Assembly: GCF_003473485.1 (NCBI RefSeq)
Contig: NC_053045.1
Span: 4,924,501 to 4,988,500 of the forward strand
Source of the DNA: Medicago truncatula
Lineage: Eukaryota; Streptophyta; Magnoliopsida; Fabales; Fabaceae
Length of the DNA: 64,000 nt
Direction of reading: 5' to 3'
Shown here piece after piece: positions 13,764 through 16,030 of the stretch. Position numbers and translations under genes: made by a program. How positions within the stretch are numbered: position 1 is the first letter of the stretch; each line of letters begins with the position of its first letter. Below the pieces are notes generated by a model, which made no database searches, had not been told where the DNA came from, and saw only the letters and a program-made list of their open reading frames with translations.

Positions 13764-16030
13764 CTAAGAGGAAGAAAAGGTATCAATGATGGTAGTGTGA
13801 AGAGGATCACTCAAATGAGTAGCCCAGTTGTTAAGTGGTCCTTTACCAGTAGCTGCAGCTTGAACAGCAAAACCAAGGAAAGCAACCATAGCAAGACGAG
13901 CATGTTTGATTTCTGCCAATTGAAGTGTTGCTTTCTTTTCTGGATCAGATGCTAAACCAAGTGGGTCAAAGAATTTTCCACCTGGGTATAGTCTCTTTTC
14001 TGAATCAAGCTCAGCATTTCTCTGGAATTCAATGTAGCCAATTACTAGAACTTCGATCCAGATTAGTGTTGTGATTGAGAATGGAAGTGGTTGTCCAAGA
14101 TATGTTGATCCTTCTACTAGCTCAACCTGAAAAATTATACCAAAATTTCATAATTTAGTGAATGCACAAATTAATTCTTTGTTTCATTCTTTTTCTAATT
14201 TGAATTTTCTCCAAGGTGAAGTATATTTCTAAGAAAAAGTTTAGAGCAAGATCCTCATATTTTATGATGGGGAACACAATGGTACCCTATGAAGCACAGA
14301 CACTCCTTGGATTAGACATGTTCCAGTGTCGAACACGTTTTGTATCCGACACCGACACATATAGCTACACTGAATTATGTAATTTTCCCAAATTATTAGC
14401 TGTGTCGGCGTATGTGTCGTGTCTGATATTCATGTCAGGATCTGTGCATCATAAATGGTAGCTTATGATAATAGAAATATGCTATGATAACACACTAATA
14501 TTGAACAATTTTTTCATCTTCTTTTTTGTTCTTTACCAATATAATGTAAAAAGACAAATCAAAATCAAAATAATCAAAATGCTTCAAGATATGGTAGTTG
14601 AAAACACACCATAAAACCTATATTCCTTCAAATTATAATTTTGTATGCGCGGTTGGTTAGTGTATAAATGTTTTACACATGTATTTTATCATTTGTTGTC
14701 ATATCATTTAATTAGTATTACAATTCATGTGTTTTTAAAATTATTAAATAAGGTGATACATATCATTGGATGATAGTATTAGTATATAAATGTCAAAAAA
14801 AAATTAATACAAAATTTTCTTCCTGTTAATTTTAATTTTTGAAATATCAAAACTTATAAATTTGAAATGGGATTAGAATGCAAAATTAATTTTAAAACTT
14901 GTGAGAAACTATTTGATTTTTTTTTTTTTTAGGTCAATTGATTTGATTTTAACTAGTAAACATTGTATTATTTTTATCCTCTATACTAAACAAATTTAAA
15001 AATTGCTCAAATGTCATTTTTCCATTAAAAAAAAAACATAAAACATATGCATGCATCTACAATAGAATCTAAACAACATAACATGTATAAATCATCAAAC
15101 TCAAGCATGCATGCATTCAACACATACTTTGAATTAAAGACATGTCTTCTGATAAATGATAATTACTCAACAATATTAATACTAATACTTAATTAATAAA
15201 CACTAAACAGCAAATTTATAAGAGATTGGACAGAACCAAACAAACCTTTCCAGCATCTTGCCATGTAACACCAGTAAGCCACTCAACAGTAAGAGCACCA
15301 AGAGTAGCAAGCATAGCCCACCTACCATGAATCAACTCACATTCTCTAAACCTTTGAAGTCCAAAAACCTCACTGTAAGGCTGAAATGGAGTCGATTTCA
15401 CATCAGCAAACTCCGTCCTGGTTCCGATCACATCTCCAGCAAGATTCTTTGCCAAATTCTGATCAAGCGAGTCGAGATCAAATTGCAAATATTCTGCTGG
15501 TTTCCCCAAACCAAATGGATCAAATCCGTAATCTCCGACCAAACTTCCGTCTAGCCACTCCGGTGACTTTGCTCCGGGGAACCATAATGGACGATCAGTA
15601 CCTGTTAGATATAATTAAAGATCCGTTAAAATTAGTTTTAAAGATTCGTTAGAATTAGTTTTATATTGTTTAAGTTAGTTACTTTTTTTTTAGGGATGTT
15701 TAAGTTAGTTACTAGTATTTTTTATCTTCTTTTTATACAAGTTAGTTACTATTAAAAAATAAATTAATATAACCGACCGGCGACTATCAACTAATTATAA
15801 CTAACTATTAAAAATAAACTAGTTAAAACAAAATAATATCAAAGTAATTTTAACGAATCTTTAATTATATCTAACGTACTTGGACTTGATCTGGATGGTT
15901 TCTTTGGTGCGGCTTTCTTCTTTCCGAAGCCAAATCGGGCTTGGATCCTACCCGAGTTGGATTGAACTTCGCGGAGGCGGGTGCCGATGAAGGAAGAAGT
16001 GGCTGCAGCGGTGGCGGTTGCGGCGGCCAT
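13764..16030 (-). CDS. LHCB4: Light-harvesting chlorophyll a/b protein CP29 (LHCB4)
   Basis: Three exons (16030-15880, 15601-15246, 14126-13764) encode 289 residues, the usual CP29 length. A short transit region is followed by [20 protein letters not shown] and [20 protein letters not shown]. The chlorophyll-binding helices are visible: [18 protein letters not shown] (helix B) and [18 protein letters not shown] (helix A), with [18 protein letters not shown] and [11 protein letters not shown] before them. The complete C-terminus ([20 protein letters not shown]) marks it as the LHCB4.1/4.2 type rather than the shortened LHCB4.3 type. CP29 is a minor monomeric antenna of photosystem II in the thylakoid membrane, linking LHCII trimers to the core. 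Introns are phase 1 and phase 0. Intron 1 (278 bp) is bounded by terminal inverted repeats, which is odd. The start codon is preceded by a Ser/Thr/His-codon-rich leader with no better ATG. Confidence 0.97.
14260..14455. repeat. 'gtgtcgg/ccgacac' repeat in LHCB4 intron 2
   Basis: The segment contains tgtcgaacacg, tatccgacaccgacaca and gtgtcggcgtatgtgtcgtg, forming imperfect inverted repeats. The same word family occurs at 28.24-28.33 kb (gtgtcggtgttgtg) and in an intron of the desaturase gene at 48.2-48.34 kb. It is intronic and non-coding. Confidence 0.55.
15602..15879. mobile_element. TIR-bounded intron 1 of LHCB4
   Basis: The two intron ends are inverted copies of each other: gttagatataattaaagat(c/t)cg followed by ttaaaatta, about 34 bp with two mismatches. 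They start within 2-4 bp of the splice sites. The exon-junction word gtac appears on both sides (coding strand CCAA|GTAC at the donor, CAG|GTACTGAT at the acceptor), as a target duplication would. The interior holds a further near-tandem copy (aaagattcgttagaattag). The layout is that of a MITE acting as, or filling, an intron. Confidence 0.7.

Follow-up and report, generated by a model that had tools for sequence, protein, structure and literature searches.

The window analysed here, the whole 64,000-nucleotide stretch of Medicago truncatula DNA (C4:4924501-4988500), carries on its reverse strand an LHCB4 gene of three exons and two introns (Table 1). Splicing of the three exons in silico gave an open frame of 289 residues, and both pea CP29 (..KPSRSAPTTDRPLW) and Arabidopsis CP29.1 are colinear with the spliced protein across the junction of exons 1 and 2. 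From the reading frame and this protein colinearity we infer that intron 1 is spliced in vivo. The genome searched below comprises 430 Mb in 42 contigs.

Table 1. Features of the LHCB4 gene and of its first intron (window positions; a slash, here and in the text, marks a sequence boundary)
Feature	Position	Strand	Remarks
Exon 1	15880..16030	-	ATG to ..TCAAGTCCAA
Intron 1	15602..15879	-	278 bp, phase 1, GTACGT...CTAACAG; nearly all inverted-repeat element
Target duplication copy, donor side	15876..15880	+	GTACT; gene-sense A/GTAC includes the donor GT
Donor-side arm	15841..15875	-	reads GTTAGATATAATTAAAG... in gene sense; alignable, in LTR orientation, to the start of LTR-like relatives
Acceptor-side arm	15604..15638	+	T15603 plus arm reads TGTTAGATATAATTAAAG, like the start of LTR-like relatives
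Tandem duplication in acceptor-side arm	15615..15663	+	23-bp unit, 2.1 copies, 92%
Target duplication copy, acceptor side	15598..15602	+	GTACC; 15602 provides, in gene sense, the G of the AG acceptor
Exon 2	15246..15601	-	GTACTGATCG.. to ..GCTGGAAAG; continuous with exon 1 in the paralog
Intron 2	14127..15245	-	at the position of the paralog's intron (GCTGGAAAG/GT)
Exon 3	13764..14126	-	runs to the stop codon

Intron 1 is rich in A+T (79%). An initial annotation had described inverted repeats of about 34 bp at both of its ends, and our counts bear this out: the ends match at 32 of 34 positions, a value that was not equalled in any of 20,000 dinucleotide shuffles (maximum 26), and the two 35-nt arms are 94% complementary. 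Among 9,018 further intervals of the same 278-bp length sampled from the window (step 7), a single one reached 32/34, and it belongs to a separate element near 440-707. That element is an inverted repeat of MITE-like appearance whose ends match at 33 of 34 positions; elsewhere in the window, at 1381-1822, a 228-bp unit stands in tandem (1.9 copies, 98% matches). The donor-side arm of intron 1 starts 4 bp inside the intron and the acceptor-side arm 2 bp inside it, the 2-4 bp reported at the outset, and just 6 bp of the intron are left outside the element. For the gene-sense RNA of the intron, folding predicts a long hairpin with -64.4 kcal/mol (z -6.4).

The flanks of the element read, on the forward strand, GTACC/TGTTAGAT...ATCTAAC/GTACT. 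The word GTAC, first put forward as a target duplication, does stand on both sides, but the extent of the duplication fits 5 bp with one mismatch (4/5), not GTAC alone; a 6-bp duplication, which we considered first, was replaced by 5 bp since the relatives of the element begin with TG. The element itself has TG at one end, and its donor-side end lacks the terminal T. The splice sites lie as originally read, with the donor across the duplication and the element end (GTAC/GT) and the acceptor, CTAACAG, at the other end, where the acceptor-side arm in reverse provides ..CTAACA.

A genome search for further copies had been proposed in the same annotation. With the whole 278-bp intron it returned just one weak further place, but patterns made from the arms were productive. 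A 31-position pattern built from the LHCB4 arms and one relative gave 25 matches (24 distinct loci) against 0 in the reversed control, a 32-position outer-end pattern gave 14 against 0, and a 34-position pattern 7 against 0. The three patterns together mark 33 distinct places, LHCB4 included, and these counts are lower bounds; three of the places (L065, L069 and L080) resemble, by eye, AT-rich chance matches. A 19-bp exact-end pattern was uninformative (98 matches, 63 in its control). From its 98 matches 28 loci other than LHCB4 were extracted, and none held a convincing paired copy; L010 gave a weak match (59% over 280 bases). Judged by these sequence matches, the arms of LHCB4 intron 1 are part of a dispersed family.

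Many relatives start with TGTTAGA.. or similar, and by eye eight of them (L058, L059, L066, L079, L081, L083, L091 and L093) continue into a common block like GATCACTATATAAAGTG, which is clearly TATA-like in at least four. At L091 a PBS-like sequence comes after a 214-bp TG..CA stretch with the end ..CTCAACA; inspection of this locus showed no coding region. A stretch with such ends, a TATA-like block and a PBS-like motif is, we take it, an old Ty1/copia-like LTR, and many relatives do look like the start of such an LTR, not like a MITE. When both LHCB4 arms were compared with six relatives that we had picked ourselves, the alignment started at the first two LTR bases in 12 of 12 cases and extended over about 80-117 bp; for three of the six relatives the acceptor-side arm aligns from 21-22 bases inward, beyond its tandem duplication. 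Three of the 12 alignments failed to exceed the top score of 300 mononucleotide shuffles; the other nine did. A scan for opposed arms with at most four mismatches, which covered the loci of the 31-position pattern, found LHCB4 and L072 only among the 25 matches. L072 (C4:52553437) lies within an intron of a transporter-like gene, named by eye.

The insertion that made the intron could have been that of a classical MITE, a non-autonomous TIR DNA transposon, with the likeness to an LTR start being secondary. MITEs are short, AT-rich elements with long inverted ends, and the LHCB4 element resembles them in all these respects; its palindromic shape and the occurrence of opposed arms at L072 also speak for this reading. 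We consider it unlikely nonetheless, since eight relatives run on into the GATCACTATATAAAGTG-like block, the PBS-like motif follows L091, and opposed arms with at most four mismatches were confined to two of the 24 distinct loci of the 31-position pattern. No multi-copy palindromic family was found, in contrast to what is seen for MITEs, and many of the relatives are LTR-like. The element is not a demonstrated MITE. The proposal that a DNA transposon had made the intron is supported in part: the intron has the look of an intron-making insertion, but 'DNA transposon' or 'MITE' is not the best name for it because the arms match the beginning of a Ty1/copia-like LTR. The likeness to Ty1/copia LTRs lies in the TATA-like block and the PBS-like motif of the relatives and may extend to the TG..CA-type ends and 5-bp-type duplication of such LTRs, LHCB4 having 4/5 matches in its duplication and one terminal base missing. 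The element differs from a Ty1/copia solo LTR in that its termini are two opposed LTR starts, and because the LTR 3' end (..CTCAACA in L091) is absent it does not qualify as a plain solo LTR.

The LHCB4 protein gave 34 matches in the genome; three correspond to its own exons and two to those of a single close paralog on C3. The first exon of this LHCB4-like paralog (C3:35029028-35029546) runs across the intron 1 codon without a stop, and its intron lies at the same position as LHCB4 intron 2. The protein alignment is loose right at the junction (64% overall, with one 4-residue gap), and the paralog exon is continuous there. No further match among the 34 spans the intron 1 codon with an open frame; one on C8, spanning residues 50-139, has five stops. 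In four other dicots Lhcb4 falls in a one-intron group, in a survey that gives intron counts and not positions (PMC6993755). The accessible parts of papers on peach, chestnut and kiwifruit gave no position for the Lhcb4 intron. On this comparative evidence LHCB4 intron 1 is an extra intron, absent from the paralog within the genome and, by count only, from four dicots.

The alternative named originally is an older intron later filled by a MITE; applied to this element, it means that an intron already present at this codon took up the element and lost all of its own sequence. Family copies do occur within larger, probably older introns, as in an MLO-like gene (L004/L057), the transporter-like gene and an aldehyde dehydrogenase-like gene (L083), all named by eye. 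At LHCB4, however, the old sequence would have had to be deleted to within 4 and 2 bp of the splice sites, and a later filling is unlikely because the element accounts for all but those 6 bp of the intron; the paralog lacks an intron at this codon, and the gene belongs to a one-intron group in the four other dicots. We regard this history as very improbable. Unrelated AT-rich sequence duplicated locally in inverted orientation, with no mobile element involved, would account for the single weak place found with the whole intron but is contradicted by the dispersed family (25 against 0 and 14 against 0), by the presence of a target duplication and by a TG end that resembles those of the relatives, and can hardly be credited.

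Two other places in the family appear to be whole introns. The first (L061/L082, C4:45135442) lies in an NPH3-domain gene (PF03000, Pfam); a first impression of this gene as HD-Zip/START-like gave way to the Pfam assignment. Its 94-bp intron reads AAAG/GTAGGCTGTGTTAGAGATAG...CTATCTCTAACAG/GTAGC, with a GGTAG duplication (5/5) and four extra bases between duplication and element. It has 12-base inverted ends (TGTTAGAGATAG and CTATCTCTAACA); its end, like that of LHCB4 intron 1, repeats its start in inverted orientation. A 119-residue query from this gene gave 32 matches in a search that scores the best candidates only; two were its own exons, and the other 30 of 30 crossed the site without a stop. 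The closest paralog, 83% identical over the query, has the empty site TTAAAGGTTGCA. By its sequence, the 94-bp stretch is apparently a whole intron derived from the family.

The second place (L089, C2:46722993) is in a kiwellin gene (PF24300, Pfam), where an intron of 133 bp corresponds to the LTR start in reverse orientation. Its donor GTAACA falls within LTR sequence and its acceptor reads ..TTTAACAG; inspection of the intron flanks revealed no target duplication. The protein obtained on splicing is colinear with kiwellin 4pmk, and the 133-bp stretch likewise appears to be a whole intron from the family. The apparent whole introns are thus three among the 33 distinct places, LHCB4 included. 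They were sought, among copies found with the 31- and 32-position patterns, by eye and by an open-frame test over 150 nt of one flank, and a test of that length on a single flank could have passed over additional whole introns next to short exons. One more place, C2:1235735, was by eye not a whole intron.

Compared pairwise, the three introns scored 58, 46 and 70 against 42, 44 and 45 for the best of 2,000 shuffles each, the similarity of the LHCB4 and kiwellin introns (46 against 44) barely exceeding the shuffles. All three end in TAACAG. In each, the acceptor is the LTR terminus reversed (TAACA) plus one flanking G, and the acceptor-adjacent LTR start is oriented against the gene. The similarity of LHCB4 intron 1 to the other two stops about 23 bases short of the 3' splice site, where the inner copy of its tandem duplication lies. 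The 5' ends of the LHCB4 and NPH3 introns are alike over a short stretch only, and the kiwellin 5' end lies within LTR sequence. For LHCB4 and NPH3 the upstream target copy contains the donor GT. Absence at homologous sites, by which gain of an intron is recognized (PMC9860276), was observed for LHCB4 in the paralog and for NPH3 at the 30 of 30 places; for kiwellin the comparison is that of the spliced protein with 4pmk.

We consider it probable that LHCB4 intron 1 is the product of a short palindromic element that inserted in coding sequence and whose ends are old Ty1/copia-like LTR starts. The two ends of such an element would be inward-facing copies of the LTR start, and its insertion would have generated a target duplication of about 5 bp, in gene sense AGTAC or GGTAC. 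The donor would then be the GT of the upstream target copy, extended by the element end (GTAC/GT), and the acceptor would combine the reversed LTR terminus (..CTAACA) with the G that begins the downstream copy (CA/G). Removal of the intron would leave a single target copy and thereby keep the reading frame; the empty NPH3 site illustrates how the frame is restored upon excision. Repeated CTAAY motifs in the AT-rich reversed LTR sequence could act as branch points, and a hairpin between the arms would draw the splice sites together. At LHCB4 the target may have been GGTAC, the exon copy having since become AGTAC, in which case splicing would have been exact at once, or AGTAC, in which case a later change would have created the acceptor. 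The same use of the element ends is proposed for the NPH3-domain gene and also for the kiwellin gene, there with the donor inside LTR sequence. The anatomy, the empty paralogous sites of LHCB4 and NPH3, the dispersed family and the common acceptor design are observed; the order of events, and any route by which two LTR starts came to form a palindrome, are inferred.

Single introns made by transposons exist in plants, as with maize Ds and a rice SINE. The closest known system is that of the Introners, in which the 5' splice site comes from the target duplication and the 3' splice site is carried by the element (PMC9860276, here and below as given in the excerpts available). In LHCB4, too, the whole intron is the element, the donor lies in the duplication, the acceptor is at the element end and the frame is kept, as in the Symbiodinium example of that paper (Fig. 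2B legend). An Introner family is defined there by at least four introns with similarity within ten intronic bases of both boundaries, and a 2022 survey of 3,325 genomes reports, in the same excerpts, no Introners in land plants (PMC9860276). The case described here differs in having three introns against the minimum of four, LTR-like ends and a land plant host (PMC9860276). It works like an Introner and is not classed as an Introner family because three introns fall short of the required four. The SMART/FRetro129 elements of grasses are small LTR elements that are often intronic and alter some gene structures (PMC3281118). In the parts of that report at hand, the alterations described are of exons and UTRs, unlike the apparent whole new introns with LHCB4-type ends described here (PMC3281118). 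Among the titles and abstracts of open-licence literature matches listed, we found nothing on LHCB4 intron 1 or on LTR-made introns of such design.

The source of new introns is an open question, and transposon-made families of them are not reported in land plants in the excerpted survey text (PMC9860276). Our data suggest that a land plant has gained new introns from mobile DNA of the family found at LHCB4, with three unrelated genes of a single plant apparently owing a whole intron each to one mobile family. More tentatively, and as a possibility we would not yet call likely, a land plant may have an introner-like system in which reversed, sometimes palindromic ends of LTR retrotransposons carry the acceptor TAACA/G and capture a donor from a GGTA-type duplication, so that in unrelated genes an insertion in an exon would yield an intron in a single step. 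One of the three genes, that with the NPH3 domain, has a paralog with the empty site, and the mechanism is therefore directly testable by legume comparison and splicing assays.

Some family copies have other positions relative to genes. In the MLO-like gene (L004, 1501-1588; C4:38507810) a family arm runs from 6 bp past the donor edge of the intron, whose 3' part is by eye unrelated. Three copies on C6 (L062, L074 and L075, at 4501684, 4508577 and 4515591) have the same upstream flank and therefore probably spread by local duplication. At L084 (C4:56556229) a family end lies just 5' of an apparent exon start (CAG/GTATTCC) in a gene that by eye is WD40-like.
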